Shown here: positions 1-15,275 of the stretch, piece after piece
Layout of the letters: the number at the start of each line of letters is the position of its first letter
Numbering within the stretch: position 1 is the stretch's first letter
NCBI RefSeq assembly: GCF_016804325.1
Contig: NZ_CP043629.1
Span: 1 to 38,021 of the forward strand
DNA: 38,021 nucleotides
Source of the DNA: Methylobacterium aquaticum
GTDB lineage: Bacteria > Pseudomonadota > Alphaproteobacteria > Rhizobiales > Beijerinckiaceae
Direction of reading: 5' to 3'
Program-made: the position numbers and the translations under genes
The notes under the pieces: generated by a model
What the model saw: only the letters and a program-made list of their open reading frames with translations
What the model was told of the DNA's origin: nothing
The model's database searches: none

Positions 1-64
1 AATCGTCGACGAGGACGAGTGCAAAATCGAGAGCGGGAGGGCGGACGTCACACAATCGGGATGA
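1..64 (+). CDS. Nu1-like HTH protein, 3' end only
   Basis: The window opens inside this gene. The last 20 or so codons and the TGA at 62-64 match the end of the complete gene at 18901-19482, where the product is described. Confidence 0.85.
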   Translation, partial: IVDEDECKIESGRADVTQSG

Positions 65-675
65 GTGTGGCGCGCCATGCTCGCAGGTGTGGCATCCAAT
101 TACTGATTATCATCAAGAGGTTAGGCATCCAAGCCACACCCGCCACACTTGCCACACCCTAAAATCGACGGGATGGCATAAATATGAAAAAGTGAGATTT
201 TGCGTAGGAATCAATATATTTCTCTGTAAATATATATATATATATAGATCAGGCACTTAGCATTTTCCTTCCAGTGCGCGCTAATTTTGCGATGTGACGG
301 TGTGAAAGTGTGACGCCAAGGCCAAGTCATTGGTTCGAAGGGGAAACGTCAAAAATCCCGCCACACTCGGATGTGGCAGAACACATGAGGCGTGTGGCGG
401 TCGCCGGGAGTGGGGGCGGCCTGAATGCAGCCCCTTGCGAGCTTCTCGGCCGCAATGCGACCTTGTGGGGAATATCCAGGTATGGATTGTTCCCTGGGGT
501 GGATCACGCGAGATCTGTTGCCGGTTCGCCACGTTGAAGCGCAAGCTGAGTACAGCCGCAGCCAACTGAAAGACCTTGTTAAGGCGCGCTTCGGCAGCCT
601 GGGATCTTCACCCGAACTCTCGCTGCGCCTCGTCGTAGTGCGTCCCTTCCACTGCCATCCGACGAGGTGACCGGC
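65..675. promoter_or_regulatory. Non-coding region with GTGTGGC heptamers around an AT-rich core; candidate packaging site, origin or operator
   Basis: About 610 bp without a convincing gene. GTGTGGC or its complement GCCACAC occurs at 65-71, 87-93, 133-139, 142-148, 151-157, 360-366 and 392-398, with a near copy at 371-377. Between the two groups lies an AT-rich stretch (about 180-260) holding a TA run at 231-246. A sequence at 209-221 is one mismatch from the IHF consensus WATCAANNNNTTR. Short ORFs from 281 to 670 overlap in several frames and look like chance. The layout of protein sites, IHF-type bend and more protein sites resembles lambda cosB, which gpNu1 binds, and a Nu1-like gene ends right next to it. 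An iteron origin or a simple operator cluster would look similar. Seen: the repeats. Inferred: the function. Confidence 0.55.
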
Positions 676-1502
676 ATGACCATCTCCCGCGAGGCGATCG
701 ACATCGAGGCGCTTCTCGTCCGTGCCTACCGCGAGCAGCGGGTCGACCAGTACGGCCGGGACGGCAAGGCCGCGGGCGCCGTGGCGCTTGGCCTCGGCTC
801 CGGCCCCCGGCGCCGGGATCGCAGCTCGGCGGCCCGGAGCGGGTCGACACGTCGAGCTATGCGGCCAACCAGGCAGCCCGGACCCGCCAGGCGTTCCAGC
901 AACTCGCCGCCACGCCCGACGGGCTCTTGGCCCTGCACGATGCGGTCCTCGCCCTCCCCGACATGTTCATCGAATACGGGGCCGGCGCCGACTTCGTGGT
1001 CTGGGACGCGGAGACGGCGGAACGCCGGGGCGAGGTCATCACGCTCGCGGGCGGGCGTGCGACGATCCAGGCCACGCGCCGCCGCGGGGGGCGAGGCGAG
1101 GGCCGCAACGACCGTGTGCCGGTCGGCCTGCCCCGCCCCCTCACGATCCTGCCGATGACCGTCCTCGTCATCACCCACGGTCGCGGCGATAGCCGGCCGG
1201 ACGTGACGGATGTGGCCTGGCGCCGCCGTCCGGTCTATCGCCATGGCACCCGGGACATCGCGAGCTACGAGTCCGTCCCGGACGCGCCCCTCGACATCGT
1301 CGCGTTCGAGCGCGCCCGCTACGTCGCTTGGCACGCAGTTCTCGGGATGCTGACGGCGGCGAGGGCCGAATGCTCCGAGTTCGCCGTCACGGGGCCGGCT
1401 GCGCCTCTGACGATTTGGGCCTCCGAGCCGGTCAAACAGGTGCCCGTGACCAGGCGCAAGGCACGGACACTAAAGGCAAATTTGGAGCGAGGGGCGGCCT
1501 AA
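676..1502 (+). pseudogene. Unknown protein gene, frame broken in this copy (likely sequencing error)
   Basis: Same gene as the intact 275-residue version at 20094-20921. Here the G run at 809-810 has two Gs instead of three, so the frame is lost after about 45 codons and hits a stop near 1158. The rest of the protein continues in another frame to the TAA ending at 1502. Since the other copy is open throughout, I read this as an assembly error and not a real mutation. Confidence 0.8.
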
Positions 1503-1566
1503 GCTGAGCAGCTTGACGGCCAGGGAAAGCTAGACTAGGGTCAGAGCACCCTCAGAAGGTTTGAAA

Positions 1567-1595
1567 ACGCCCGGCGCACTCCGCCGGGCGTTTTT
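1567..1595 (+). terminator. Rho-independent terminator
   Basis: A perfect 10-bp stem, ACGCCCGGCG at 1567-1576 and its complement at 1582-1591, with a five-base loop is followed by TTTTT to 1595. It lies about 65 bp after the stop of the unknown gene and ends that transcript. The Nu1-like gene downstream therefore needs its own promoter in the following 250 bp. An A run on the 5' side could let it act weakly on the minus strand too. Confidence 0.9.
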
Positions 1596-1814
1596 CGTTG
1601 TGGGCGCTGCCCCGGCCCGCCCCAGCGGCGAGGCCCATCTCTCTGCGCGACAGCGATCCCGCCCCGGACGGTCGCGCCTCGCAGCGCTGCGTCCTCGCCT
1701 GTCCCCGCCTCGCACTCCTGTCCGACCCTGCCCGCCCCACCCCCAATGGGTCCCTCTGAGGGGGGTGGACCCATGCGGGCGAAAAGCACCCGGGATTTCT
1801 CTAGTTGCTCTGTT

Positions 1815-1861
1815 CAAAAACCGATGCACAGGTGCACAAGTATGAGCACAGATTGCACAGA
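1815..1861 (+). promoter_or_regulatory. GCACA repeat cluster at the start of the second Nu1-like gene
   Basis: Around the likely start codon the pentamer GCACA occurs four times within about 40 bases (about 1825-1860), including the near-palindrome TGCACAGGTGCACA and two copies of GCACAGAT. Such spacing suggests an operator, possibly for autoregulation by the HTH protein encoded here. The stretch 1596-1770 before it holds no convincing gene. The inverted pair GGGTCC/GGACCC lies at about 1747-1772. Confidence 0.35.
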
Positions 1862-2408
1862 TCTAGTCTCAATCAGTGAGCTTCACAGAAAGCTGACTGC
1901 GGATGGGGTCGCGATCAATAGATCTAGCCTGTCTCGCTACATCACGCGCTACGCCGAAGACCTGAACCCAGTCGTGCAGGGACGCGATACGCTGGTTTCC
2001 TACGCCGCGGTGGTCCGCCACCGGGCGGAGAACACGAACCTCGACAGCGCGCTACCGGCCCGACGCTCCTCCTACGAGGGGCCGCGCCGCACCGGGGCGG
2101 CCAAGGCGCGCCGGGAGGAGGCGGACGCGAGCCTGCGCGAGATCGCGCTCGCCAAGGCCCGCGGCGAACTCACCCCGACCGCGGAGGTGGTCGAGGCCGC
2201 CCGCGAGGCGGTGAGCGCCATGACGCAAGCCTTCGACCTCGCGCTCGCCGATACGGCCGAGCGCATATCCGCGGAGACCGGACGCGATGCCCGGGTGATC
2301 CGCCCCCATCTGCGCAAGCTCAAGGATGCGGGTCTCGCGGCCTTTCGGGCCACCCTGACCAAGGCGCTCGCCGCGGAGCAAGGCTCGACGGCCGCGCCCG
2401 GCGCGTGA
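1842..2408 (+). CDS. Nu1/small-terminase-like HTH DNA-binding protein
   Basis: Predicted 188 residues. Residues about 8-36 form a helix-turn-helix (motif ISELHRKLTADG followed by INRSSLSRYITRY). Residues about 85-145 form a charged helical region with the pattern ALAKARGELTPTAEVVEAA. That combination is typical of phage DNA-packaging Nu1-type proteins, which bind the packaging site and recruit the large terminase. In-frame ATGs also exist at 1773 (good GAGGGG ribosome binding site) and 1824. I took 1842 because homology-like sequence begins there, but 1773 would add 23 residues and is a fair alternative. No large terminase gene is visible downstream, so the protein could also be a plain transcription or replication regulator. 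The gene is separated from the previous one by a terminator. Confidence 0.6.
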   Translation: MSTDCTDLVSISELHRKLTADGVAINRSSLSRYITRYAEDLNPVVQGRDTLVSYAAVVRHRAENTNLDSALPARRSSYEGPRRTGAAKARREEADASLREIALAKARGELTPTAEVVEAAREAVSAMTQAFDLALADTAERISAETGRDARVIRPHLRKLKDAGLAAFRATLTKALAAEQGSTAAPGA

Positions 2409-2648
2409 TCCCACGATGGCGCCCCCCAATCAGACGGGGGAGCCGTCGGTTTTCGGTTTGGCCGAGTCTCGGCCACCACCCCTTGGCGAGGGATCCTGAC
2501 GGCGTCGCGGCCCGTCGAACAACGGCAAGTTGACCTCTTGCCTCGCCATGCAGACATCAAGTCAAGGTCAACGCGGCCGCACCTTTTACCATCGAAAGTC
2601 ACGCAGCGCTCAAGGCGCGCGGGCAGTCGACACCCGAAAGACCACAGC
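2409..2648 (+). promoter_or_regulatory. 240-bp leader with an 8-bp inverted repeat
   Basis: Gap between the second Nu1-like gene and the repeat-bearing gene. GTTGACCT at 2529-2536 and AGGTCAAC at 2565-2572 form a perfect inverted repeat separated by 28 bases, and the first arm contains a TTGACC that could serve as a -35 box. This may be an operator-promoter for the structural block. No gene seen. Confidence 0.35.
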
Positions 2649-3197
2649 ATGACATTTGCCACCCAACCCACCAACCCGTGGGGCGTCAAGGTGCCGGCTG
2701 CGCGGCACGGCGCGCAGCAACTTCCCATTCCTGTGGCTGGCACCGCCGAGGAGGCCCGGAGCGTCGAGTTCCGCAACCGCCTCTTGGCTGCCTGTAGCGC
2801 GCAGCTTGCCGCCAACGGCGTCGCCTTCCGCGCGACCCACGGTGAGGCTGGCAAGACGCGCGAGGCGGCCCGCCGGGAGCAGCACGCCGCACTCGGCATC
2901 ATCCCTCGGGCGCAGGAAGCGCAACCGGTCGAGCCGCACGCGGCCGGCCTGGGCGCTGGTGACGCGCCGATCGCGAAGATGCTGTCGGCGGCGGACGAAA
3001 CGCGGCCCGGTCACGGCCTTCCCATGGAGAGCGCCGCTCCGGTGTCGGCCCCTGCCGCCGGTTCCACCGTGCTCGCCGATCGCATGCGGGCTCGCCACGG
3101 CCTTCCCGCCGCGAGCACTGGGCCGGTCCCGGCCCCGGCTGCCGTGACCGCGACGCTCGCCGATCGCATGCGGGCCCGCCACGGGCTCCCCGCCTGA
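2649..3197 (+). CDS. Unknown protein with C-terminal LADRMRARHGLPA repeats
   Basis: 182 residues from ATG 2649. I do not recognise the family. The N-terminal 110 residues are Ala/Arg-rich and probably helical. The C-terminal 60 residues carry two near-perfect copies of LADRMRARHGLPA separated by Ala/Pro linkers. A degenerate third copy (RPGHGLPM) precedes them. Repeated short basic motifs on flexible linkers resemble peptide tags that dock onto a partner, or scaffold-type tails, but nothing proves this. It is followed after 29 bp by the first coiled-coil paralogue and probably shares its transcript. An upstream in-frame start at 2538 would add 37 residues with no ribosome binding site that I can see. 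Confidence 0.65.
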   Translation: MTFATQPTNPWGVKVPAARHGAQQLPIPVAGTAEEARSVEFRNRLLAACSAQLAANGVAFRATHGEAGKTREAARREQHAALGIIPRAQEAQPVEPHAAGLGAGDAPIAKMLSAADETRPGHGLPMESAAPVSAPAAGSTVLADRMRARHGLPAASTGPVPAPAAVTATLADRMRARHGLPA

Positions 3198-3226
3198 TCC
3201 CCGTCCCTCCAGATCCTGAGGATCCC

Positions 3227-4129
3227 GTGAAGCACGATCTCGCCAGTCTCGTCGCCCTCTCCGCCGATACCGCAGCCTCGTCCGACGCCGTCGCCGACGG
3301 CCTATCCGCTGCCCAACGCCTTGCGGAGGCGGCGGCGACCGCTCTCAGCCAGGCCGAGACGGCCTATCGCGACTCGCTGCTCACCGCCGACGACAAGGCG
3401 ATGGGCCGCCTCGCCTCCGAACGCGGGACCGCCGAGATCCGGCGCGACCGTGTCGCACAGCTCGTCGTCGCGCTTGATGAGCGTCTGACTGCGGCCCGTG
3501 CTTCGGAAGATGCTGCTCGGAAGCGCGACGCCTACGCTGCCGCGCGCACCCTGCGGGACGCCGCAGTGGAGCGGGTGGAGCGGGAGTATCCCGCCCTGGC
3601 CCAGGAAGCGCTGGCGCTCCTGCGCGTCATCGCCGAGGCTGATCTCGCCGTCGCCCGGTCGAACGATGACCTGCCCGAGGGGGCCGAGCGCCTGTCCCGC
3701 GTCGAGATCATCGCCCGCGCCCACCCGGGCGCAGCGCGCGAGGTGCTCGACGAGCGCACGGTCGAGTTGTGGTGCCCCGAAGGTTCGGCCGAACCCATAC
3801 CGGCGGAGCGGCAGGCCCGGGTGATCCGCCAGGACGACCGGCGGGGCTATTCGTCGACGCCCCACGGGCAAAGCTTTTTCGAGCGCCGCGCCTTCCACCA
3901 GACGACCGCCTTGCCGGCTGTCCGGGCGCAGTACTCCGACCCGCTGGCGAGCGCACTGGTGCTGCCGCCCTTGCGTCCGGGCGAGCCCTTGGCCTGGGCG
4001 CTCGACGATCACGACCCTCATCCCGACCAGATCCTGCGCCGCCTCGACGCCATCGCGGCGGCGAGCGCGGTCAGCCGTCCGGCGCCGAAGCGCGTCCCGG
4101 AGATCAAGCACGAGCCGGTGGCCGGCTGA
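3227..4129 (+). CDS. Unknown coiled-coil protein, paralogue 1
   Basis: 300 residues from GTG 3227, preceded by GAGG five bases upstream. Residues about 1-130 are Ala/Glu/Arg-rich and predicted to be coiled coil. From about 130 on there is a globular part with the segment LLRVIAEADLAVARSNDDLP, then GAERLS and a WC pair near residue 183. The same order of features is found in the next gene, so the two arose by duplication. In the block between a small-terminase-like gene and tail genes one would expect head proteins, yet neither paralogue looks like a capsid or portal protein. Function unknown. Confidence 0.75.
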   Translation: MKHDLASLVALSADTAASSDAVADGLSAAQRLAEAAATALSQAETAYRDSLLTADDKAMGRLASERGTAEIRRDRVAQLVVALDERLTAARASEDAARKRDAYAAARTLRDAAVERVEREYPALAQEALALLRVIAEADLAVARSNDDLPEGAERLSRVEIIARAHPGAAREVLDERTVELWCPEGSAEPIPAERQARVIRQDDRRGYSSTPHGQSFFERRAFHQTTALPAVRAQYSDPLASALVLPPLRPGEPLAWALDDHDPHPDQILRRLDAIAAASAVSRPAPKRVPEIKHEPVAG

Positions 4130-4221
4130 CGCCTCCGAACCTCGCCGCCCGGCCCGTCGCGATCCACGCGCGACGGGCGGCGAGAGCCACCGCCCACCGC
4201 TCACCGTCCAACGAGACACCG

Positions 4222-5145
4222 ATGCTCAAGACCCTGAAATCACTGATCGGCGTGGTTCGTGCCCCCGACGCTCCGAGCTCTGAGCTGGAGTCCGCCCTTG
4301 CTTCCGCCGAGGCCCAAGTGACGGCGGCGGCCGGGGAGGTCTCCGAGGCGGAGGCCGCCTACCAGGCTGGTCTCCTGGACAGCGACGACGCCGGCTTGGC
4401 GCGGCTTCGATCGGCCCGCGAGGCGGCCAGCGTGAAGCAGGAGCGCGCCGCAGCGCTGGTGACCGCTCTGCGCCAGCGCATCGCCGCCGTGCAGGTCCAG
4501 GAGGACGAGGCCGGCCGCCGCGAGCGCTACGCCGCCGCGAAGCGCGCCTCCGCTGCCGCGGGGAAGGTTCTGGCGACCGAGTACCCACGCCTCGCCCGTG
4601 ACCTAGTGGCCGTCCTCCGCCAGGTCGCCGAGGCCGATCTCCTGGTGATCGCTGCGAACGAGGCGCTGCCGGCCGGCGCGGAGCGGCTGTTCCCCACCGA
4701 GGCGCTGGTGCGGCGCGAGCCGGACACGCCGGAGCGGGTTCTCAAGGACGAGATTTTCACCGCCTGGTGCGGCCCCCGCGGCCATCGGCTGGACCCCGAG
4801 GCTCAGGCTAAGGTCGAACCGAACCCGGACGGCGCCACCGGCATCTGGCGCGTCATCGGACAGCCGCCGGTGACGGTCACGCTGCGACGCTTCCGGCGGA
4901 TCACCCGCGTGCGTGAGATCCCCGGCCGCTCGCTTCCCGCGCTCGCCGCTACCCTCAACCTGCCGCCCCTCGCCGTGGGCCACGTGCCCTACTGGCGGGA
5001 GGACGTGGTGCGGCATCCGGCTAGCATCCTTGAGCACCTCGACCGGACGACGCCGCTGTGGGGCAAGGCCCTCGGCCCGGAGCCCGTCGCCTCGGCGCCG
5101 GAGGTCGAGATCGTGCCCCTCGACGAGGATGTCACTGCGGCCTGA
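4222..5145 (+). CDS. Unknown coiled-coil protein, paralogue 2
   Basis: 307 residues from ATG 4222, intact in this copy. Architecture follows paralogue 1: helical Ala/Glu-rich N-terminal 130 residues, then VLRQVAEADLLVIAANEALP, GAERLF and an AWCGP motif near residue 183. The C-terminal third (RRFRRITRVREIPGRSLP onwards) is better defined than in paralogue 1 and ends in an acidic tail. The 92-bp gap before it contains no gene, and the ribosome binding site is weak. Function not recognised. The gene sits directly upstream of the small gene leading into the tail chaperones. The second copy (23642-24564) is frameshifted at a C run. Confidence 0.75.
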   Translation: MLKTLKSLIGVVRAPDAPSSELESALASAEAQVTAAAGEVSEAEAAYQAGLLDSDDAGLARLRSAREAASVKQERAAALVTALRQRIAAVQVQEDEAGRRERYAAAKRASAAAGKVLATEYPRLARDLVAVLRQVAEADLLVIAANEALPAGAERLFPTEALVRREPDTPERVLKDEIFTAWCGPRGHRLDPEAQAKVEPNPDGATGIWRVIGQPPVTVTLRRFRRITRVREIPGRSLPALAATLNLPPLAVGHVPYWREDVVRHPASILEHLDRTTPLWGKALGPEPVASAPEVEIVPLDEDVTAA

Positions 5146-5213
5146 GCTGCGCACCAGTTTGGCCGGTATCCGGCCCACCTTATCTATTCTCAAGCAGAGA
5201 AAGTAATTATGCG

Positions 5214-5516
5214 ATGTCATCTGATAAATTCGATGCGAGCGCGGCATTTCGGGTGGCCCGCCAGGGCGAGGACAATTCTCGCCCGTGGGCCCAAGCTTTC
5301 TTCGCGCAGACGGAGACGCTCGGCCTCTCGCTCGCGACGCTGAACCGGATCGTCGCCGAGTGCGACACGCACGCTGCCGCGATGGCGCAGGTCGAGCAGA
5401 AGCTCGCGGCCGGCGAGGGCTCCACGGCTGTCCGAGGTGTGGCCCGGGAGGATACCGCGCGCCGGATCGGCGCGGCGCACGCCAAGGCTCATCAACCGAA
5501 GAAGATCGGTGCATAG
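5214..5516 (+). CDS. Small unknown protein in the phage-like block
   Basis: 100 residues from ATG 5214, with an AGAGAAAG ribosome binding site just upstream. An out-of-frame ATG lies at 5209, so the start could be modulated. The protein is charged and helical, with PWAQAFFAQTETLGLSLATLNRIVAECDTH as its most ordered part (given here only to locate it, residues about 24-53) and a basic C-terminus (HQPKKIGA). No family recognised. Its place immediately before the tail assembly chaperone gene would fit a small tail protein. Confidence 0.65.
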   Translation: MSSDKFDASAAFRVARQGEDNSRPWAQAFFAQTETLGLSLATLNRIVAECDTHAAAMAQVEQKLAAGEGSTAVRGVAREDTARRIGAAHAKAHQPKKIGA

Positions 5517-5556
5517 CGTAGGCTAATACCAACTCACATCTTGAAGAGGATCACCA

Positions 5557-6039
5557 GTGTCCATCGATTTCTCTAAATTCGAACCGGCTTCGAAGGCCGA
5601 TGCTGCCGCGGCAGGGCTCCTCTCGTCGCCGGCCGGCATGTATCCCGCGGAGGCCGCCGCCTCGTCGCCTGGGGGCGTGCCGGCCGCGGTGGCCGCTGCG
5701 CCGCCGCCGGCCGCTTCGGCGCCCGGTTGCATCGTCGCCTTCGCCGAGGGTGGGCCGGCGCGCCACGTGCCCGTAACGCTGGGCTTCCCGATCGTCGTCG
5801 ATGGCGTGCGGGTGGATACCGTCGTCGTGCGGCGCTTGCGGGTCGCCGAGGTCCGGGCCTACGTCGCTGCGGTCCAGGCCGGGCAGGAGGCGAGCCTGCC
5901 GATGTACGAGCGCCCCGACGGCGTGCCGCTGCCGCAAGCCGCCCTCGACGCGCTCGACTCGGACGACTTCGACAAGCTCGACGCGGCGGCCGTGGATTTT
6001 TTGCCCCTCGCCCTGCGGGGCGATCCGACCTCCGCCTGA
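5557..6039 (+). CDS. Tail assembly chaperone, short form
   Basis: 160 residues from GTG 5557, with AGAGGA seven bases upstream. After an Ala/Pro-rich N-terminal 65 residues comes a compact domain (VPVTLGFPIVVDG, then VVVRRLRVAEVRAYV) like the tail assembly chaperones of Mu-like and P2-like phages (gp41 and gpE type): a short beta unit followed by an Arg-Leu-Arg motif. These proteins coat the tape measure before tail tube polymerisation. Strong support comes from position (directly before the tape measure gene) and from the slippery site at 5997-6003 that gives an extended form. Confidence 0.8.
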   Translation: MSIDFSKFEPASKADAAAAGLLSSPAGMYPAEAAASSPGGVPAAVAAAPPPAASAPGCIVAFAEGGPARHVPVTLGFPIVVDGVRVDTVVVRRLRVAEVRAYVAAVQAGQEASLPMYERPDGVPLPQAALDALDSDDFDKLDAAAVDFLPLALRGDPTSA

Positions 6040-6173
6040 GGCCCGAGGGCTGGCGGTCCGCCGTCGCGCTGGTGACGGCGGTGTTCGGCCCGCACCTCGA
6101 TCGCTGGCTGTCCGAGGATTGGACCGAGCTGGCCGACTGGTGGGGCGAGGCGATGACCCTGCGGGGAGAGTAA
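5557..6173 (+). CDS. Tail assembly chaperone, -1 frameshift fusion form
   Basis: Ribosomes slipping back one base at T TTT TTG (5997-6003) leave the short frame after codon 149 and add 56 residues, ending at TAA 6171-6173, for a total of about 205. The added part is not random: it reads GWRSAVALVTAVFGPHLDRW and ends ELADWWGEAMTLRGE, like the tryptophan-rich small domain of gpE+/gpGT type extensions. No independent start with a ribosome binding site is evident for this second frame. Phages of many tailed families make such a pair in a fixed ratio. The fusion form links the tape measure to tail tube subunits. The stop is three bases before the tape measure ATG. Confidence 0.8.
5997..6003 (+). 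other. Slippery heptamer T TTT TTG for -1 frameshifting
   Basis: In the frame of the short chaperone the bases read as T, TTT, TTG, matching the X XXY YYZ rule exactly. After slipping, both codons re-pair as TTT. It lies 12 codons before the short-form stop, so the frames overlap just enough. Because this assembly has homopolymer errors, the six-T run should be confirmed. It is the same length in both copies. Confidence 0.8.
6008..6023 (+). promoter_or_regulatory. Stimulatory hairpin after the slippery site
   Basis: Bases 6008-6013 (TCGCCC) pair with 6018-6023 (GGGCGA) around a TGCG tetraloop, starting four bases after the slippery heptamer. Short GC stems at this distance commonly stall ribosomes and raise -1 frameshifting. 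Confidence 0.6.
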
Positions 6174-6176
6174 GCC

Positions 6177-9100
6177 ATGGGTACCGTTACGTCGTCCCTC
6201 GTCATCCGACTGCAAGATGACGTATCGGCCCGCGCCGCCAAGGCGGCCGGCGCCCTGAAGCAGCTCGGGGACTCGGGAAAGAACCTGAGCCGGCTCGGCG
6301 GGTCCACCGCCGGCCTCGACAAGGTCGCGCAGCGCCTCGACGCGCTGCGGGGCAAGCTCGAAGCCGTCTCGCGGTTCAAGGCGGCCGGGCGCGGGTTGAT
6401 CGACCTCGGCGTCGACCTGCGCAAGGCGCGCGCCGACCTCGCCGAGGCCGACGCGCTGCTGAAGAAGCGCCAGGACACGCTGGACCACTTCGCCCGGGTG
6501 AAGAAAACCGACCCGCGCCGTTACGCGACCTGGAAGGCGGACGGGCTCGTCGACCAGGTCGCAGCAAATTTCACAGCCGCCAAGGCGGCGCAGGCGCAGG
6601 CCGCGCGCGCGGCGGCCAGGGCGCAGCGCGCCTATGACGGTCAGCGCGCGACCGTGCAGGAGATGCGCGCGAAGTTGCTGCCGAACGGCGGCCCGGCCGC
6701 ACGCCTCACCGGGACGGAGGCGCGTCTGCGCGCCCTGATCGCGCAGACTGAGGGCGAGCAGCGGGCACAGGCTGCCGCGCAGGCCGCGGCCCGGGCGCGG
6801 ACCGCACAATCCCTCATCGAGCCCGGTCGCCGCACGGCGGCCGAGATCGATGCGCTGATGCCGAGGCCCGGCGGTCAATCATCCACCGCGGCTCCCGTCA
6901 GCCTGGCGCCGGCGACGCCGGACGGGGTGGGCCGGGCCGCCGGCACTGCCGCTTCGGCGGCGGCCGGACTCGGCAAAGTCGAGACCAAGGCGAGGGGCGC
7001 CGATGCGGCCGTGCGCCATCTCGCAGCCGCACCCCCGCCCCTCGCCGGGTTCTCGGACGCCCTGACCCGCGACCTCGCCGCGCTCGATCTGACGAAGGCC
7101 GAGACGCGGGCGCTCGCCCGCGAGGTCACGCGGATGCGCGCCGACCAGGTCAAGGCGCTCGGGCCGATCAACCCGCGGTATCACGCGCAGATCCTCGACG
7201 CCGATCGGGGCCAGATCGAGGACCGGGTCCGAGCGCGGGCCCGCGAGATGGCCGAGGAGCGGCGTACGGCGACCCTGCTCCGCCCGGCCCCGAAGGCCGA
7301 CGCCAAGCCCGCGGACGAGGTTACGTTCGATCCCGCGGCGGTGCGGGGCATGCGCGAGCGGATGGGGCTGGCCGCCCGGATGGAGCGCCAGCGGGCTTCC
7401 GAGACGGCCGCGGCGGCGGCGAGCGACGGGCAGGCCTTCCGCGAGCGGTTCACCTTCGCGAGCCGCATGGCGCGCCAGCGTGCGCAGGAGGAGCGGCGGG
7501 CGGGCTCCGAGGCGGCGCAGGCGGCCCGAGAAGCCGCTCGCGAGACGGCCCGCGTCGAGGCGCAGGCGGCCCGCGAGACGGCGCGGGTGGCCCGCGAGGC
7601 AGCCCGCGAGAAGATCCAGGCCGCCCGGGAAGCGGCGCGGGAGGCTCGGCGCCTCGAGCGCGACGGGAGCCGCGAGACCGCGCAGGCGGCGCGTGAGGCC
7701 GCCCGCGTTGCCCGTGAGGCGGCCCGCGAGCGCGTCGCAGCAGCCCGTGAGGCCGCCCGCGCTGCTCAGGAGTCGGCCCGCCAGGAAGCCACCGCTTTGC
7801 GCGCCGTCGCCCGTGAGCGGGCCCGGGCGGCCCGGGAGGCGGCGCGCCAGGACCGCGAGGGCGCTCGCGCCCGGCGTGAGGTCGGGCACCACGCCCGGAC
7901 CGCGGCCGGGTTCGTCGGGGCCGGCGGCGCCCTCTACGGCACCGAGCGCTTGGCCCGCACCGGCGCCCGCACGGCCGGACAGAGCGAGATGGAGACGGCC
8001 CGCGGGCGGGCGGTGGGCCTGACTCCGGAGGAGGACAAGATCGGGCTCGACCGCGCGAACGCGCTGTCGAAACAGTTCCCGTCCCTCAACCCGACCGAGT
8101 TGCGCGAGCTGTATCGGGCCCTGCACGTCAATCTCGGCGGCAACGCGAAGGCGGCGAGCGACACCCTTGAGCCGGTGGCGCGCTCGCAGGTCATGCTGCA
8201 GAACTTCCGCACCCGCGATGAAGCACAGAGCGACCTTGCGCGTATTATCCGCGGCGCCGAGAACATGGGGATCTCGGACGATCCGAAGAAATTCGAAGTA
8301 TACCTCCAGGGTGCCACCAAGGGCATGCAGCTCTTCGGTGACACCCTGCGCGGCGAGGACTATTATCAGTACGCCAAGACCGGCCGTCTCGCAGTGGCGG
8401 GCCTCAACCCCCGGTTCCTCGGCGCTATCGCGCCGTCGATCATCGACGACATGGGTGGTCCAAGCGCCGGCCAAGCGCATTACACCGCCTCCAACGCTGT
8501 CGTCGCCGGGCGGATGAAGAAGGAGTCGAAGGCGGCCGCGAAGTCATTCGGCCTGATGGGGAAAGATGGCCGGATGATCGGCCGCGACACCTTCCAGCAA
8601 GACCCGTTCGAATGGGCGCTCAAGGTGCTCGAACCCGCCCTGGCGAGGAAGGGTAAGGGGTTCGACCCCAATGACTCGGGCAAGTTCGTCGATACACTGA
8701 CGACGATCTTCAATGATCGCAACGCGGCCGAGTTCATCGGTAAGCTCGTCACCAAGCAGGGCGAGCTGAAGCGCAACGAGGAGCGCTTCACGAAGGTGCG
8801 GGGACTGGAAGACGCCGAGAAGGTACGTCGAGAGAACCCCGCCGTCGCTCTCGAAGGCGCCAAGACTCAGGGTGCGCAGCTTCTCGGCGAGGCCCTGGCT
8901 CCGGCGATCAATCCGGCGACGGTCGCCCTCAACGGGCTCGCCGATGCGGCGGCCTCGGCTTCCGCGAAGCTCCGGGAGAACCCGCAGGCCGTCGAGGGCG
9001 GCGGTGTGGTCGCGTCGATCCTCGGGGCCGTGCTCGGCCCCAAGGTCGCCGGGGCCCTCATGACGAAGCTCGCCGGCGACGGAACGGGCATCGTCGCCAA

Positions 9101-10154
9101 CGCCCTGCGGATGGGCGGGGCCGCGTCCTCGGCGGCCGGCAGCGCCCTCGGCTACGCTGGGGGAGTCGGCGTGCCGGCAGCGATCGGCGCGGCGGCGGGC
9201 GAGGCTGGGGCGGTCAACGAGCAGGCTCTCCCGAACCTGCTCGCCGGCCGGGAAAGTCCGACCGCCCGCATCGCCCGCGAGCTGGGCGAGGCTCGGCGCC
9301 AGCAGGCGACGGAGACGGGACAGCGCGACGAGCTGGACCGTCGTATCGGCGGGATGCGCGGGATCATCGATCGCCTCACCACCCATTACGGCGAGGCGCC
9401 GGCCGGTCGCGTTGGGCAGGCTCTTGCGGGGCATCGCAAGGTGCTCGGCGAGCTTGAGGGCCAGCGCGACGCGATCAACGAGCGCCTGCGCGAGGCGGCG
9501 CGCGGCCGGGCTCTTGGGCAAGAAGTGCCGATCGCGGCTCCGGTCGCGCCTCAGGCTCCCGTCGCGGCCACCGCACCACAGGCGGCGGTCGCCGCTCGGG
9601 CGCCGGTCGCGGCCACGGCTCCGACAGCGGCCCAGTCTCCGGTCGACGGCGCGGCGATTGCGCAGGCTGCCGCGGAGTTGGCCCGCTACCGGGCCGAGTT
9701 GGCAATTGTGAGCGAACGACAGGCCGCGACCGCCGCGCTCAGCTTGCCTGGGCTCGGTCGCGACCTCACGGCGAAGCGGGCGGAGATCGAAGGGCTGATC
9801 TCTGGCCTCGAGGCGCGTATCAAGGCGCTCGGAAGCGAGACGATCGCTCCGAACATCGACGCATCGCAGGTCGAAGGGCTCGGACAGAAGTCGGGCGAGG
9901 CGCACGACAAGCTGACGAGCCTCAACATGACGGTCGCGCCGCAAGTCGACACCTCGTCTCTCTCTGCGGCGATCGCTCTGGCGAGAAGCTTCAACGCCGA
10001 ACTCGCCAAGATCGGGCCGGCGATCGCGTCAGCCCGGGCACAGGCAGCGAGCCTCACGGTGCCGTCGGCCGGCCAGGGCGGCGGCGGGGACGGTGTCGGC
10101 CGGCAGGCCTCCACCGGCATGGTCCGGCGGGGGCTCGCCAACAACTTCGCCTGA
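6177..10154 (+). CDS. Phage tail tape measure protein
   Basis: 1325 residues from ATG 6177, with GGGGAGAG upstream. Order: N-terminal helical part with VIRLQDDVSARAAKAAGAL, typical of minor tail/tape measure starts. A long Ala/Arg/Glu helical stretch follows at about 444-568, built from repeats such as AREAARE. Residues about 570-930 are the ordered tape-measure core: LNPTELRELYRALHVN, the segment IIDDMGG, a DPFEWALKVLEPALA motif and FNDRNAAEFIGKL. Hydrophobic Gly/Ala segments follow near 943-1010, then an Ala/Pro/Val linker at about 1119-1160 and a helical C-terminus. The protein sets tail length and is ejected with the DNA. At about 0.15 nm per residue it would specify a tail near 200 nm. 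It directly follows the chaperone pair, as in tailed phages, but no tail tip or baseplate gene follows. Confidence 0.88.
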   Translation: MGTVTSSLVIRLQDDVSARAAKAAGALKQLGDSGKNLSRLGGSTAGLDKVAQRLDALRGKLEAVSRFKAAGRGLIDLGVDLRKARADLAEADALLKKRQDTLDHFARVKKTDPRRYATWKADGLVDQVAANFTAAKAAQAQAARAAARAQRAYDGQRATVQEMRAKLLPNGGPAARLTGTEARLRALIAQTEGEQRAQAAAQAAARARTAQSLIEPGRRTAAEIDALMPRPGGQSSTAAPVSLAPATPDGVGRAAGTAASAAAGLGKVETKARGADAAVRHLAAAPPPLAGFSDALTRDLAALDLTKAETRALAREVTRMRADQVKALGPINPRYHAQILDADRGQIEDRVRARAREMAEERRTATLLRPAPKADAKPADEVTFDPAAVRGMRERMGLAARMERQRASETAAAAASDGQAFRERFTFASRMARQRAQEERRAGSEAAQAAREAARETARVEAQAARETARVAREAAREKIQAAREAAREARRLERDGSRETAQAAREAARVAREAARERVAAAREAARAAQESARQEATALRAVARERARAAREAARQDREGARARREVGHHARTAAGFVGAGGALYGTERLARTGARTAGQSEMETARGRAVGLTPEEDKIGLDRANALSKQFPSLNPTELRELYRALHVNLGGNAKAASDTLEPVARSQVMLQNFRTRDEAQSDLARIIRGAENMGISDDPKKFEVYLQGATKGMQLFGDTLRGEDYYQYAKTGRLAVAGLNPRFLGAIAPSIIDDMGGPSAGQAHYTASNAVVAGRMKKESKAAAKSFGLMGKDGRMIGRDTFQQDPFEWALKVLEPALARKGKGFDPNDSGKFVDTLTTIFNDRNAAEFIGKLVTKQGELKRNEERFTKVRGLEDAEKVRRENPAVALEGAKTQGAQLLGEALAPAINPATVALNGLADAAASASAKLRENPQAVEGGGVVASILGAVLGPKVAGALMTKLAGDGTGIVANALRMGGAASSAAGSALGYAGGVGVPAAIGAAAGEAGAVNEQALPNLLAGRESPTARIARELGEARRQQATETGQRDELDRRIGGMRGIIDRLTTHYGEAPAGRVGQALAGHRKVLGELEGQRDAINERLREAARGRALGQEVPIAAPVAPQAPVAATAPQAAVAARAPVAATAPTAAQSPVDGAAIAQAAAELARYRAELAIVSERQAATAALSLPGLGRDLTAKRAEIEGLISGLEARIKALGSETIAPNIDASQVEGLGQKSGEAHDKLTSLNMTVAPQVDTSSLSAAIALARSFNAELAKIGPAIASARAQAASLTVPSAGQGGGGDGVGRQASTGMVRRGLANNFA

Positions 10155-10167
10155 TGCTGGCTGGCCC

Positions 10168-10270
10168 TGTCCGGAACCGACCGGTTTTGGACAGGGCGGA
10201 CCATCCTGTTCAAAATCTAGCCTTTATGAATTCCGGACATGTGTTCGGTTCCGGTCAGGGTTTTCGGACA
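10168..10270 (+). other. Candidate res site with three subsites
   Basis: The gap before the resolvase gene contains three segments that each begin TGTYC and end GGACA: 10168-10193 (26 bp), 10207-10239 (33 bp) and 10242-10270 (29 bp). The sizes and order echo the 28, 34 and 25 bp subsites I, II and III of Tn3/gamma-delta res, with the far subsite as the expected crossover site. Resolvases act at such sites to resolve plasmid dimers or cointegrates, and to repress their own gene. Subsite limits are from inspection only. Confidence 0.55.
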
Positions 10271-10280
10271 AAACTGCTTC

Positions 10281-10889
10281 ATGCCGCGCACCTTCGCCTA
10301 CCTCCGCGTCTCGACCCCCGGCCAGACCACCGACAACCAGCTCACCGAGATCCAGGCCGCCGGGTTCACCATCGAGCCGCGCCGCCTCGTGACCGAGACC
10401 GTCTCGGGATCCACCGCGGTCGCGCAGCGCCGCGGGTTCGCGCGCCTTCTCGACCGGCTCGAGGCGGGCGACGTTCTGGTGGTGACCAAGCTCGACCGGC
10501 TCGGCCGCAACGCCATGGACGTCGGCGCGACCGTCGCCAGGCTCGACGAGCTCGGGGTGCGGGTCCACTGCCTGGCCTTGGGTGGGGTCGACCTGACGAG
10601 TTCGACGGGCAAGCTGACGATGGCCGTGATCAACGCGGTCGCGGAGTTCGAGCGCGATCTCCTGATCGAGCGGACCCAGGCCGGGCTGAGCCGGGCGCGG
10701 GCGGAAGGCCGACGGCTCGGCCGGCCGGCCAGTCTCACCGGTGAGCAGCGCGCGGAGGTCGCGCGCCAGCTCGGGGAAGGTGCGAGCGTGTCGGCCCTGG
10801 CGCGGACCTTCAAGACCAGCCGGCAGACCATCCTGCGGATCAGGGACGCAACTGTCCCATCGAAAACCGAATTGGAGGTGGCATCATGA
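10281..10889 (+). CDS. Serine recombinase, resolvase/invertase family
   Basis: 202 residues from ATG 10281. The catalytic serine is S11 in YLRVSTPGQ. The TKLDRLGRN segment supplies the conserved arginines, [13 protein letters not shown] is the dimerisation helix, and RRLGRPASL leads into a C-terminal helix-turn-helix ([18 protein letters not shown]). It is the typical length of a small resolvase and has a candidate res site right upstream, so dimer resolution is its likely job. DNA inversion remains possible, but I see no inverted segment flanked by matching sites. It sits exactly where tail tip genes would follow in a phage, so it may mark the edge of an acquired phage block. The start of the next gene overlaps its stop. 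Confidence 0.92.
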
Positions 10890-11182
10890 AAGCTTCCGTC
10901 GCCGAGGGTAATATCGGACTTTTCGACAAGTCGGATCTCGTGGATTTGATTAGATCTCAGATCAAAAAGCTCGGCCTCACGCAGACCAAGGCGGCCGAGC
11001 GCATGGGCGTCACCCAATCCGAAGTGTCGAAGGTCTTAAGGGGCCAAACAAGAGGCTTTTCAAGCGAGCGGTTGCTTGCTTTTGCGGGCGCGCTTGGGGC
11101 TGACATCGAGATCAGCATCAAGGTCGCCCCTGGCGCGCGTCAGGGCCGGATGAGCCTGAAGGTGGAGATGGAGGCGGCGTGA
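10886..11182 (+). CDS. HigA-like XRE-family regulator, toxin not seen
   Basis: 98 residues. The ATG overlaps the resolvase stop (ATGA), with GGAGG seven bases upstream, so translation is coupled. Residues about 25-75 form a classic helix-turn-helix ([21 protein letters not shown]) followed by [21 protein letters not shown], the layout of HigA2-type antitoxins that pair with Gp49-like HigB toxins. No such toxin gene lies next to it. It may be an orphan antitoxin or a repressor of the resolvase promoter. GC content is lower than in the phage-like block, hinting at a separate origin. Confidence 0.8.
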
Positions 11183-11228
11183 TTGCACTTACAGCCGCTT
11201 CGCGCGTTAGTGCTCAGTCTCATTGAGA

Positions 11229-11555
11229 ATGGGTTGCATCGTGGATTACGCTTGGGAAAAGCTACACACTGCCGTGCTCGGCATAGCCCGTAGCGACGAT
11301 AGCCTGCAGGTTCGGCTTGCTTACGCCTACATCGGCGGCTTGATAAATATTCGTCCTGAGGAGACCCTGCCTGAGAACCTGCGCCCAAATATGGCTGAGA
11401 TCCATGCGGCGTTCAGGACGCACGAGGCCAAGGGCGACGAAGGTGGTGCTATGGCCTCCGCCCTTGCGATGTCCGATGAGGACGCTCGCGCTACAATCGA
11501 GAAGATAGTTATTCTTTACGACGAAATCGCTCAGCGCTCGCCATTCAGGCGCTGA
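11229..11555 (+). CDS. Small unknown protein after the HigA-like gene
   Basis: 108 residues from ATG 11229; TTG 11223 and GTG 11241 are in-frame alternatives. The core DYAWEKLHTAVLGIA followed by SLQVRLAYAY, PENLRPNMAEIHAAF and MSDEDARATIEKIV looks like a real all-helical protein and, from memory, resembles small uncharacterised proteins of many proteobacteria. It lies 46 bp after the XRE gene in the same direction, so it may be its partner. It does not look like a known HigB toxin. Confidence 0.65.
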   Translation: MGCIVDYAWEKLHTAVLGIARSDDSLQVRLAYAYIGGLINIRPEETLPENLRPNMAEIHAAFRTHEAKGDEGGAMASALAMSDEDARATIEKIVILYDEIAQRSPFRR

Positions 11556-11643
11556 TGCGCTCGTTAGATTTGCCACCGCTTGGATGCGCCTTTGCCTGGG
11601 CGGCTTGCGTGTCCAAACGGTGGCGGCGCGGAGTCCGCAGCTC

Positions 11644-11874
11644 TCAAGCGTGATCAAGCTGCGAGAGGCAGTCGGCGAATAGGCGTCGGCCGAGCTCAGG
11701 GTCATTGTTCAAGTAGGCTGAAATCGCATCCGCTTCACGACGATCAGGGCAGACCGCAACGATCCGCTGTGCGTTGGTGGCAGCGGAGATGTAGCCAGCA
11801 TCATGGACGGCCCATCCACCGTCGGCATGCGCCTGAACGCTGAACCGCCAGCCGGTATAGCTCGTCTTTGGCAT
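11644..11874 (-). CDS. Small unknown protein
   Basis: 76 residues on the minus strand, starting at 11874 with an AAGG-type site just upstream. The sequence is balanced (WRFSVQAHADGGWAVHDAGY, then VCPDRREADAISAYLN) and reads as a genuine small protein, with no low-complexity bias. Family not recognised. It is one of two neighbouring minus-strand genes between the resolvase and partition modules. Confidence 0.55.
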   Translation of the reverse strand: MPKTSYTGWRFSVQAHADGGWAVHDAGYISAATNAQRIVAVCPDRREADAISAYLNNDPELGRRLFADCLSQLDHA

Positions 11875-11879
11875 TCACC

Positions 11880-11897
11880 TTATCCATTTTATCCACG
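11880..11897 (+). other. Two DnaA-box-like nonamers in direct repeat
   Basis: TTATCCATT at 11880-11888 and TTATCCACG at 11889-11897 lie back to back. The second is one mismatch from TTATCCACA. They sit in an AT-richer gap (11875-11952) between two leftward genes. Only two weak boxes far from the Rep gene make this a poor origin candidate. They may simply be part of a promoter. Confidence 0.25.
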
Positions 11898-11952
11898 CCA
11901 GTTAGTCGTGGCCAGCATGGATTTTTGCCACTTATAGGACGTTTTTGTGACA

Positions 11953-12291
11953 CTAAATAAACGTGAATTGCAGGGCTTGATAAAGGCGGCGGCGCAGGTA
12001 TTTTTCGCAGCCCTGCTGAAAGCGCTGCCGGTTCTCATCACTCGTGAAGTGGAAGATGACGCCTGGATCCATCAGGTCCTCATCCAAGACGTCACGAAAG
12101 GCGCAGAACCCGTCCACGTGCTGTGCCTGCACGCGCAAATGGGCGGCGACGATGGCGGGGCTGCCAATGATGGGTAGATTGCCGCCCGGCGCGTAGACCA
12201 CCCGCACCTTGAAGGTGTGCTGGTCGCAGTCCTGCTCCTCCGTAAGCCCCTGGGCCCGCCTGAAGTCGCCCAGCACTTCCCTTGCCCGCAT
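11953..12291 (-). CDS. Small unknown protein
   Basis: 112 residues on the minus strand from ATG 12291, with GAGGAA seven bases upstream. A plausible globular protein with CDQHTFKVRVVYAPGGNLPI, GSPAIVAAHLRVQAQHVDGF and FHFTSDENRQRFQQ. I do not recognise it. A plus-strand reading of the same DNA (11947-12177) lacks a ribosome binding site and is less protein-like. Its promoter would lie in the 137-bp gap shared with the divergent parA. Confidence 0.6.
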   Translation of the reverse strand: MRAREVLGDFRRAQGLTEEQDCDQHTFKVRVVYAPGGNLPIIGSPAIVAAHLRVQAQHVDGFCAFRDVLDEDLMDPGVIFHFTSDENRQRFQQGCEKYLRRRLYQALQFTFI

Positions 12292-12428
12292 GATCCATTC
12301 CTCGCTTTGCCGTGCCTGGTATGTGGTGCTGCCTACCTGAAATCGGTAGCAGGAGGGATGGTGATGCGTTAACGGTTCTGTGGCGGTTTTGTACCACTAA
12401 TATGCCGCGACAAACACGGGCGGGTACC
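12292..12428. promoter_or_regulatory. Divergent control region before parA
   Basis: Gap between the leftward unknown gene and parA. It contains an inverted repeat (TGCTGCCTACC near 12330 against GGTAGCA near 12346) and two related GGTACC/TGTACCAC motifs close to the parA start. Small ParA systems are often autoregulated from such sites. No gene seen. Confidence 0.35.
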
Positions 12429-13079
12429 ATGGCGACGATCATCGGCTTGGCGCAGACCAAGGGCGGCGTCGGCAAGACTACCACGGCTCTCAACCTAGCG
12501 GCCGAGCTGCGGCGGCGCGGGCGCACGGTGGCCGTCCTTGACGCAGACCCGGCTGCGCATGCCGTTTCGATCGCGGAGAGCGGACGCCTCGGCTACCCGG
12601 TTGTCGCCCACCTTTTGGAGGCGGGCGACGAGATGTCTGTGTCCGCCTGGGTCAAGAGCGTCCAGGCCAGATCCGAAGCCTTCGTGCTGATCGATGCCCC
12701 TGGCGCTATGGGAGCGGCATTCGGTGCTACCATTGCGATCGCGCACCTGGTTCTCGTGCCGTCTGGGGCGACCGTGCTCGATGTTCGCGGTGCGGCCGAG
12801 ACGGTGAGTTCTATCCGCCGGAACCGCCGCGCCACGAAGCGGACCCGGCCCGACATCCTGGTCGTGCCGAGCCGCATCGATCGACGGACCTCGGCCGGTC
12901 GGGACGTGGTGGCGACCCTTGCGGCGCTTACTGAGCCGGTCGCCCCCGCAATTTCATACCGGGCTGTCGTGGCCGACAGCCTCGCTGGTGGCGAGGTCGT
13001 GCCTCCTGACGGCCCCTCCGCCCTCGAATTTGCCGCTCTGGCCGACGCGGTGTTGACGCGACTGGGAGACATGGAATGA
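12429..13079 (+). CDS. parA: ParA-family partition ATPase
   Basis: 216 residues from ATG 12429; an in-frame ATG at 12402 would add nine residues. Deviant Walker A KGGVGKTT at residues 11-18 with both signature lysines (K11 and K16), Walker A' VAVLDADP near 34-41, and Walker B-like FVLIDAPG near 80. There is no N-terminal DNA-binding extension, so it is a short type Ib ParA that relies on its partner for DNA contact. It segregates plasmid copies by forming gradients on the nucleoid. The partner gene overlaps its stop by four bases (ATGA). Confidence 0.9.
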   Translation: MATIIGLAQTKGGVGKTTTALNLAAELRRRGRTVAVLDADPAAHAVSIAESGRLGYPVVAHLLEAGDEMSVSAWVKSVQARSEAFVLIDAPGAMGAAFGATIAIAHLVLVPSGATVLDVRGAAETVSSIRRNRRATKRTRPDILVVPSRIDRRTSAGRDVVATLAALTEPVAPAISYRAVVADSLAGGEVVPPDGPSALEFAALADAVLTRLGDME

Positions 13080-13408
13080 AGCGGCGGAACGCCTCGACGA
13101 AGCTTGCCGATGCGGCTGCTGCCATCGCCTCCAGCTTGGTCGCTGAAGACGAAGAGATTGCCCAGACTGACGCCCCTGTCTCACCTGACGAGCCTGCTTC
13201 AGCCTCCCAAGCTGAGGCTACCCCTGGGCGCAGGGGGCGGCCTCGCGGGCGTCGACCCGTGGCCGCCCGCCAGACCGTCTATCTCGACGAGGCTCGTCAC
13301 GCTGCGCTCGTCAGGCTGGCTGAGGATCGCGGGCGGTCGGTGCATAGTCTGATCCTGGAGGGGATCGACGCTGTGATTGGGAAGCCATCTGCTACAGGAT
13401 GGCGTTAA
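13076..13408 (+). CDS. Putative partition partner (centromere-binding), with AT-hook-like linker
   Basis: 110 residues, translationally coupled to parA. The N-terminal half is flexible and acidic. A basic segment, RRGRPRGRRP, at about residues 58-67 resembles an AT-hook. The C-terminal 45 residues (QTVYLDEARHAALVRLAEDRGRSVHSLILEGI, residues about 72-103, quoted only to locate it) have the strand-helix-helix pattern of a ribbon-helix-helix domain. Small RHH partners with type Ib ParA proteins bind repeats at a centromere. TGGT repeats lie just after the gene. The call rests on operon position and pattern, not on recognised homology. Confidence 0.7.
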   Translation: MKRRNASTKLADAAAAIASSLVAEDEEIAQTDAPVSPDEPASASQAEATPGRRGRPRGRRPVAARQTVYLDEARHAALVRLAEDRGRSVHSLILEGIDAVIGKPSATGWR

Positions 13409-13415
13409 GGTTTTT

Positions 13416-13451
13416 TGGTATTTATGTGGTGTTATTTGAGTGGTTTTTATC
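13416..13451. other. TGGT-repeat tract, candidate centromere or terminator
   Basis: The AT-rich 64-bp gap between the convergent partition partner and the leftward gene holds three TGGT-starting units (13416, 13427 and 13441), each followed by a T-rich string such as ATTTAT or TTTTAT. GGTG and CACC ends could also pair across it. RHH partition proteins bind short tandem repeats, so a parS role is possible. Bidirectional termination is the plain alternative. Confidence 0.35.
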
Positions 13452-13472
13452 ACCGTAAAAATAGGGATGCAG

Positions 13473-13910
13473 TTATGCTGCTGAGGCGTAATCGGGCGGC
13501 TCGGCGTCGGCGCCGTCCTCGTCGTCCTCGCCCCACGCCTCCAGGTCCTCGACGGCCGCGCCCCAGACCATCAGGCGATCGAAGAGGACGGCATCGCAGG
13601 CGAAGCGGCACTCGATGGCGCCCGACGGCAACGGGCGGATGGTTTCCACCCGAGCCATGAGGGCAGGCAGCAGCCGCGCGGCTTCGCGCTGGGCCGCCTC
13701 GATGGGACAGGCCGAGATGGCTGTTGGGTCAGGCCGGGAGGCCAGCCAAGTCGCTAAGCGGTCGAAGGCGGGCGCGACCAGGATTGCCGTCAAGCTGAAG
13801 CCTCGCGGCTTCGTGCCGGGTGATGCACTGGCGAGCAGGCAGTCGAGGAGGCGCACGGCCTCCCGGTAGGCGGCCATTGCTGCATAGGGGGCAGGGAACG
13901 GGGAGGCCAT
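13473..13910 (-). CDS. Unknown protein, paralogue of the next leftward gene
   Basis: 145 residues on the minus strand. It is second in a two-gene leftward operon, 12 bp after its neighbour. Shared pattern: AQREAARLLPALM, then a threonine/isoleucine strand with PLPSG, then CDAVLFDRLMVWGAAVEDLE and an acidic tail. The neighbour has AQREAARLLVELF, HPSGG and AHDRLALWGASLDLL in the same order, so they share ancestry. No family recognised. The acidic C-terminus and alpha/beta pattern would fit a protein-binding role, but nothing fixes the function. Confidence 0.7.
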   Translation of the reverse strand: MASPFPAPYAAMAAYREAVRLLDCLLASASPGTKPRGFSLTAILVAPAFDRLATWLASRPDPTAISACPIEAAQREAARLLPALMARVETIRPLPSGAIECRFACDAVLFDRLMVWGAAVEDLEAWGEDDEDGADAEPPDYASAA

Positions 13911-13922
13911 AGGCTCAGGCCC

Positions 13923-14522: not shown

Positions 14523-14651
14523 GGCGCGCCTCTCCCCGTTCTGTCGTGATGTGCTGGTGGAAGGCTGGAGGCGACGCCCGGACGGGCGCGCTTACCGGGC
14601 CGCCGGCATGCATACCCGCGGTGAGTCAATTTGTAGCGTCAGCAGGTGTCG

Positions 14652-14781: not shown

Positions 14782-14817
14782 GCTATCGACGCCTCTTTCC
14801 CGAGTCGGAGAGGGCGC

Positions 14818-15202: not shown

Positions 15203-15275
15203 GGTGCCACCGAAGCGGCGACGTCGGGAAACGTAAGACAGTCCCGATATCGCCAGACGCTCCCTCGGGAGTCAA

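Follow-up and report, generated by a model that had tools for sequence, protein, structure and literature searches.

A Methylobacterium plasmid with a lambda-type cos candidate, small terminase and tail-length genes is probably a phage satellite that builds chimeric tails

Introduction

What does a plasmid do with a small terminase (TerS), a tail assembly chaperone (TAC) and a tape measure protein (TMP) when no head gene can be recognised on it? The question is raised by the window analysed here, which is the whole of contig C3 (38,021 bases) of a five-contig Methylobacterium genome of 7.28 Mb. Among phage satellites, P4 uses its helper's particles, and cf-PICIs form capsids of their own and borrow tails. 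An earlier note on this DNA had proposed a satellite that supplies its own tape measure and chaperones to alter a helper's tail, and had called this a new satellite strategy. The tail strategy is not new, because PLE satellites of Vibrio cholerae, which carry a TAC, a TMP and in some cases a hub (BhuB), build chimeric tails, as described in passages of a March 2026 report (PMC12987554). According to the same passages, PLE11 virions carry the PLE11 TMP and hub instead of those of the helper, deletion of tmp cuts transduction, and putative tmp genes occur in PLE-like elements and cf-PICIs (PMC12987554).

Results

A plasmid unit without recognisable head genes

A 19,419-bp unit is present 1.96 times in the window, and its two copies differ by seven one-base indels and zero substitutions (Table 1). 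The window looks like a circular element of 19,419 bp that was read almost twice, with read errors; a natural dimer is a conceivable alternative. The long frames of the phage-like module are open, as the earlier note had said, with the exception of g1, which is open in copy 2 and whose copy 1 equivalent (about 667-1502) is shifted by a one-base indel at 811, probably a read error. The DUF927 gene is frame-shifted in copy 2.

Plasmid-type replication and partition, also claimed earlier, were borne out by a ParA, an initiator-like protein and a DUF927 primase/helicase. The ParA is 84% identical to that of a plasmid in another genome (G017:C46), whose partner protein also matches the one in the window (8e-34). 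The initiator matches phrog_15967 (5.5e-37, function unknown) and, as replication initiation, phrog_4617 (6.6e-6), and is 86% identical over 131 aa to that of the G071:C4 plasmid. The DUF927 protein is 62% identical to a relative on plasmid pMNOD05, where g21 adjoins it too. The recombinase gene, judged from its sequence to be of the serine-resolvase type, has 92.7-93.8% DNA identity to genes annotated 'recombinase family protein' on four Methylobacterium plasmids. Plasmid matches of this sort, together with relatives among the genus genomes, are the basis for placing the window in Methylobacterium.

Table 1. Features of the window, with positions counted from its first base; values are E-values unless marked otherwise.
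Feature	Position	Strand	Basis or remark
Lambda-type cos candidate	1748-1864	+	cosQ-like GGGTCC at 1748, cosN-like GGGCG at 1777
TerS A, Nu1-like small terminase, 188 aa	1842-2408	+	phrog_57, 3.3e-13
g3, 181 aa	2652-3197	+	no Pfam/PHROGs family
g4, 300 aa	3227-4129	+	paralogue of g5 (35%)
g5, 307 aa	4222-5145	+	marker of the element family
g6, 100 aa	5214-5516	+	no family below E 0.01 (Pfam, PHROGs)
TAC, 160 aa	5557-6039	+	PF10109 (TAC_7), 5e-7, above cut-off
-1 slip site T TTT TTG	5997-6003	+	in-frame inside TAC
-1 frame extension of TAC, 56 codons	6003-6173	+	no Pfam/PHROGs family alone
TMP, 1325 aa	6177-10154	+	phrog_28, 3.1e-6
Recombinase	10281-10889	+	DNA similarity to plasmid genes
XRE-type HTH gene	10886-11182		Pfam/PHROGs
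ParA	12429-13079	+	PF01656, 4e-17; phrog_164, 4e-35
Small ParB-like/RHH partner	13076-13408	+	function by position; Pfam matches sub-threshold
Replication initiator, C-terminal HTH part	15185-16234	+	start not fixed
DUF927 primase/helicase	16452-18401	+	PF06048, 4.6e-57; phrog_1139 DNA primase, 5.4e-66
g21, 111 aa	18398-18733	+	58% over 52 aa to pMNOD05 relative
Degenerate second cos-like site	18750-18797	+	nhmmer E 0.014; best reversed-control E 4.4
TerS-like B	18895-19482	+	phrog_57, 1.4e-8, first 96 residues only
Copy 2 of the circular unit	19419-38021	+	repeats 1-18604 at 99.96% identity
g1, 278 aa	20085-20921	+	open in copy 2; phrog_9306, 2.6e-7

Pfam and PHROGs scans covered 20 of the 23 proteins, the recombinase and the minus-strand proteins at 11644-11874 and 11953-12291 standing outside them, and found no head, portal, large-terminase (TerL), sheath, tube, baseplate or lysis family. 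The earlier statement that no portal, major capsid, large terminase, tail tube, baseplate or lysis gene is recognisable holds for these 20 proteins, and none of the unknown genes among them gave the capsid, portal or TerL that the note had named as telling against its own reading. The complete virion gene set of a phage-plasmid was not found with Pfam and PHROGs. Among the same 20 of 23 proteins there was no capsid, portal or TerL of the element's own, as a cf-PICI would have, no Sid or Psu family, and no integrase family of the kind found in PICIs, the recombinase again lying outside the scan. With regard to AlpA/Stl-type control, as in PICIs, the scans showed a single XRE-type HTH gene (10886-11182).

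A candidate cos site joined to a full small terminase

The DNA upstream of TerS A holds a candidate cos site of the lambda type, in which TGCACAG-type direct repeats (about 1825-1864) run into TerS A. Its noncoding part (1748-1841) is 79% identical to the corresponding DNA of a prophage in genome G031 and 74% identical to that of a prophage in G029, with long invariant runs. A blastn alignment of 678 columns, with 78% identity, joins window positions 1748-2420, upstream noncoding DNA included, to the G031 prophage. The start of GGGTCC lies 29 bases before that of GGGCG in the element and 28 before it in three phages; the corresponding distance in lambda, from the start of GGGTCC to the cohesive end GGGCGGCGACCT, is 30 bases. 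Order and spacing of the two motifs agree with lambda cos.

Searching the 111 genus genomes for a 22-mer core of the site with at most two mismatches gave nine places in seven genomes and none in the reversed control. Four of the nine (both window copies, G031 and G029) had supplied the pattern; the five new ones are in G017 (twice), G026, G049 and G069. A regular expression for the site, written after the sites were known, matched 16 places in 0.98 Mb of loci (one counted twice through the L088/L089 overlap) and none in reversed sequence; five loci with TerL (G031, G029, G017:C23, G020 and G049:C4) have one such site each. The gene g1 belongs to the same piece of DNA as the site: in the G017 phage (1e-57), G049 (5e-50) and G026 (2e-45), a homologue of g1 flanks the cos-like site on its left.

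TerS A is 78% identical to the TerS of the G031 prophage and 71% to that of the G029 prophage, and a TerS A profile matched in three of 111 genus genomes, namely the host, G029 and G031. Taken with the site, this cos-TerS unit appears to be that of a contractile Methylobacterium phage with a lambda-type terminase. The earlier note had counted two Nu1-like proteins. TerS A is indeed a full TerS. TerS-like B, which lies outside the range 676-10154 in which both had been placed, matches in its DNA-binding end only. Its residues 5-72 are 59% identical to the TerS of a G020 phage, itself a full phrog_57 TerS encoded next to TerL; the similarity does not reach past about residue 86. Judged by this alignment, TerS-like B shares only the N-terminal DNA-binding end with phage TerS. 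A degenerate cos-like site lies upstream of it, followed by a 10-nt direct repeat and then by the gene itself. This pair is reminiscent of enteric PICIs, whose Rpp proteins are encoded beside cos and, in the passages of PMC9026076 that treat them, are argued to be without the TerL-binding end. A helper-like cos with an adjoining TerS or Rpp gene, as in PICIs, is present as far as sequence goes.

Cos-like arrays in related plasmids

Several related plasmids carry more than one cos-like site. The G017:C46 plasmid (L103) has five, at positions 30-531 and 10401-10515, with a common core, different repeats and nhmmer E-values of 2.5e-15 to 6e-6, two of the five being part of the nhmmer model. G069:C32 (L106) has two sites and G046:C16 (L138/L139) three. 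In G071:C4 (L029), six sites led by GGGTCC(C/T)TCC lie at 10.9-12.2 kb; their cosN core is not conserved, and CCAGT stands at the spacing of the regular expression in four of the six. The motif GGGTCCCTCC was seen seven times in this locus, where 0.12 are expected (0 of 200 shuffles). A weak cos-like site was also observed on pMNOD05, at 1408 on the minus strand.

These sites might be replication origins common to plasmids and phages instead of packaging sites. They lie just downstream of the primase or DUF927 gene in L103, L106, L138 and pMNOD05 (there with g21 between), and three of these four have several copies, as that account would expect. We nevertheless regard it as very unlikely, since a site stands directly upstream of terS-terL in all four site-bearing phage stretches with TerL and portal (G031, G029, G017:C23 and G020), the layout agrees with lambda cos, and the repeats vary between copies within one plasmid, as sites of one initiator should not. 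We read the arrays as putative collections of packaging addresses, although repeats are not clear at some of the sites and the loose pattern does not reach significance by itself.

A tail chaperone with a frameshift and a tape measure

The frameshift pair of the tail assembly chaperone and the tape measure protein were both identified as the earlier note had described them. The TAC also matches phrog_166 (2.6e-6) and, over 90 aa, shares 40% identity with its counterpart in the G031 prophage. Its slip site and -1 extension have counterparts in all ten TAC genes compared, which were hand-picked and come from phages as well as from elements with no recognised head; each has an in-frame TTTTTT(G/C/T) and an extension of 51-64 aa. 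The element's TAC carries the frameshift of a contractile phage with a lambda-type terminase.

The TMP gave no match in Pfam. Compared with the G031 prophage TMP, it shows 36% identity across the N-terminal 161 aa (2e-18). Relatives of its core turned up at 15 further places, spread over 12 other genomes of the genus, and a TMP 91% identical over the core sits on a contig of 18,792 bases. The element has, like PLEs, its own TAC and TMP without a complete tail.

Candidate helper phages

The contig with the G031 prophage has 28,468 bases, and an equally long viral contig carries the same cos core. Its TerS is followed by TerL (phrog_15, 5e-173), portal (1e-133), protease (3e-105), major head protein (3e-64) and sheath (1e-34), then by a TAC-like gene that itself has no PHROG match and by a TMP (phrog_167, 7e-15) cut by the contig end. 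TAC and TMP stand in the same order in this prophage and in the element. An L035-type contractile prophage of G029 (L035, L082), with TerL and sheath, has no such cos site. In genome G017, a phage with this cos-like site is found alongside an 18.5-kb ParA/primase plasmid that has several of them.

The host genome was searched, as the earlier note had suggested, for a prophage sharing the tape measure; it gave no second TMP of this kind, no sheath and no match to a helper-type TerL, the only terminase type covered by the search. Because of these absences, a helper would have to be an outside phage, like the ICP1 on which PLEs depend.

A family of elements marked by g5

Between TerS A and the TAC lie g3 to g6. 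Within g3 there is an imperfect DNA repeat (3012-3110/3096-3194). The product of g5 is predicted to be a long helical hairpin with a small beta part. Neither g4 nor g5 gave a significant fold match or a known function family, and comparison of g5 with Psu by hhalign gave a probability of 0.04%.

A search with g5 found 11 proteins, one from the window, several of them on contigs of 18,240, 19,347, 19,786 and 20,056 bases, and a g5 profile matched in 15 of 298 family genomes, host included. We read 12 loci found through g5 (L048, L049 and L072-L081, the last ten being ten of the 17 profile places outside the host genome, of which the other seven are weaker matches). Nine have a TMP within about 10 kb, among them L074, whose TMP is cut by the contig end, and L080, whose TMP stands beside a weak g5 match. 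Of the others, L078 has a TMP fragment, L077 is on a contig that ends too soon, and L048 has no TMP. Outside these 12, the loci L028, L038 and L045, found through TMP, also have g5, and pMNOD05 of M. nodulans (L004), found through DUF927, has relatives of g5, DUF927 and g21 and no TMP. In other elements, g5 recurs beside different TMPs. It had no match by tblastn or phmmer in the phage stretches read.

An all-against-all phmmer comparison found no match between proteins of the g5/TMP loci and the TerL, major head protein or sheath of L035/L036 and L088-L091. Helper-type TerL matches in G017, G081, G083 and G089 are on contigs other than the g5/TMP loci. Additional phage genes among the 20 proteins scanned from g5 loci are a primase (L049, L079) and a baseplate hub (L079). 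A lone head-maturation protease was also seen in L072 and L081, with homologues in L080 and L046, and a neck protein in L072/L075.

The TMP module occurs without a g5 match as well: on M. indicum pVL1_6 (L001; TMP and at least two TACs), on M. currus unnamed4 (L002; TMP and TAC) and on G071:C4 (a TMP by similarity, a hub and a TAC-like gene). No capsid family came up in the annotated proteins scanned, which were 11 of 39 for pVL1_6 and 7 of 46 for M. currus unnamed4. Both are plasmids typed as non-mobilizable, yet carry a tape measure and chaperone(s).

Selection on the module, and decay as an alternative

We estimated dN/dS by the NG86 method, the TMP and g5 values coming from relatives and not from the TMP of the window. 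TerS gave 0.19 (element-G031), 0.22 (element-G029) and 0.16 (G031-G029), and TMP pairs gave 0.07 (L072/L075), 0.12 (L045/L046) and 0.11 (L073/L074, partial). Values were 0.23 for TAC (L045/L046), 0.17 for g5 (L072/L075), 0.10 for ParA and 0.23 for DUF927. Less constrained were g5 in L049/L074 (0.40), TMP in L081/L049 (0.51) and TAC between element and G031 (0.65); dS is 1.0 or more in distant pairs. The close-pair values argue against free decay of such modules.

These values bear on the possibility that a complete phage with plasmid replication lost its TerL-to-sheath block and became an ordinary plasmid. The order g1-cos-TerS ... TAC-TMP does resemble the phages minus their middle, and G049:C4, where ParA, TerS, TerL and a cos-like site were seen and the 20 kb read gave no match to a portal, could be a partial remnant (this 56-kb contig, L105, also has a g1 homologue). 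Against decay, g3-g6 occupy the gap; g5 accompanies different TMPs in other elements and is unmatched in the phage stretches read; the long frames are open, with dN/dS of 0.07-0.23 for TMP, TAC, g5 and TerS among close relatives; and the TMP module also sits on plasmids with other replication genes (pVL1_6, M. currus unnamed4). We consider decay unlikely. A satellite, which the earlier note had put first with a decayed phage-plasmid as its sober alternative, is favoured because prophages that have complete head operons carry a similar cos-TerS unit, the g5-TAC-TMP block is found again in relatives, and close pairs show purifying selection.

Discussion

We think it likely that the element is a phage satellite living as a plasmid, with a cos-TerS unit, TAC and TMP for packaging by a helper and for chimeric tails. 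As a cos satellite in plasmid form, it probably builds such tails; all its packaging and tail functions are inferred from sequence. Infection by a contractile phage, or induction of a prophage, would start packaging of the element. The phage's large terminase with the element's TerS A would cut the element's cos, and the DNA would be packaged into phage heads. The element's TMP and TAC would replace those of the phage, giving a chimeric tail whose length is set by the element. The products of g4 and g5 may serve such elements as factors of their own for assembly or interference, and TerS-like B with the degenerate second site may be an adaptor to another phage type, either an additional one or one no longer in use.

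The same genes might instead act as a decoy, with TMP/TAC and cos spoiling assembly and packaging of an incoming phage so that the host is protected and transfer is beside the point. Satellite proteins that block tail assembly are described in parts of two reports (Tai, PMC11364771; Rta, PMC12987554), which lends this account some precedent. It does not obviously need a cos and TerS of the element's own, however, and PADLOC, run on 10 window proteins, matched only the XRE-type HTH gene (PDC-M64C, 1.6e-6) and gave no match for the two minus-strand proteins; we judge defence by decoy to be improbable.

A satellite in plasmid form would differ from each of the known systems. It resembles PLEs, as far as the passages of PMC12987554 describe them, in encoding TAC and TMP and leaving tube, sheath and head to a helper. 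PLEs depend on ICP1, whereas the element is a ParA/DUF927 Methylobacterium plasmid with a lambda-type cos and its own TerS; of the PLE gene list it has the TAC-TMP part only, on an unrelated backbone, and the likeness is one of gene content. Unlike P4, it has no Sid/Psu family, and its replication and partition genes are unlike the P4 record. With phage-plasmids it shares the presence of phage and plasmid genes on one circle, but not recognised head, motor, tail-tube or lysis genes. It differs from cf-PICIs in having no recognised capsid gene and resembles some of them in the putative tmp noted in part of PMC12987554. Among Gram-negative PICIs, the sections of PMC6092414 drawn on here describe EcCICFT073, with two cos sites that both function, as being packaged into capsids of full size and having no capsid-size genes. 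The element has a comparable cosQ-cosN like that of lambda helpers and a TerS-like gene beside cos (parts of PMC6092414 and PMC9026076). It differs from PICIs in lacking a recognised integrase family, in having a full TerS, helper-like repeats after cosN and TAC-TMP, and in that related Methylobacterium plasmids have more, and more varied, cos-like sites.

That related plasmids carry up to five or six cos-like sites with different repeats suggests several helpers. These Methylobacterium plasmids may be generalist satellites, with several cos-like sites, packaged by phages with different terminases, a reading we hold tentatively and at a little short of an even chance. To such a scheme the window element would add two adaptors, a full TerS and a DNA-binding-only TerS-like protein for another phage, and its own tail ruler. 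Among the literature matches listed, neither chimeric-tail TAC-TMP modules nor multiple cos sites were described for Methylobacterium plasmids. The novelty lies in the host group, in the existence as a plasmid, in the TerS pair or TerS-cos set-up and in the cos-like arrays of relatives.

If the satellite reading is true, chimeric-tail satellites would extend from the PLEs of Vibrio to an unrelated plasmid lineage in Hyphomicrobiales, and g5 would be a marker protein for finding such satellites. The cos-like arrays would make the use of several helpers by satellites directly testable, and plasmids typed as non-mobilizable could travel between cells inside phage particles.
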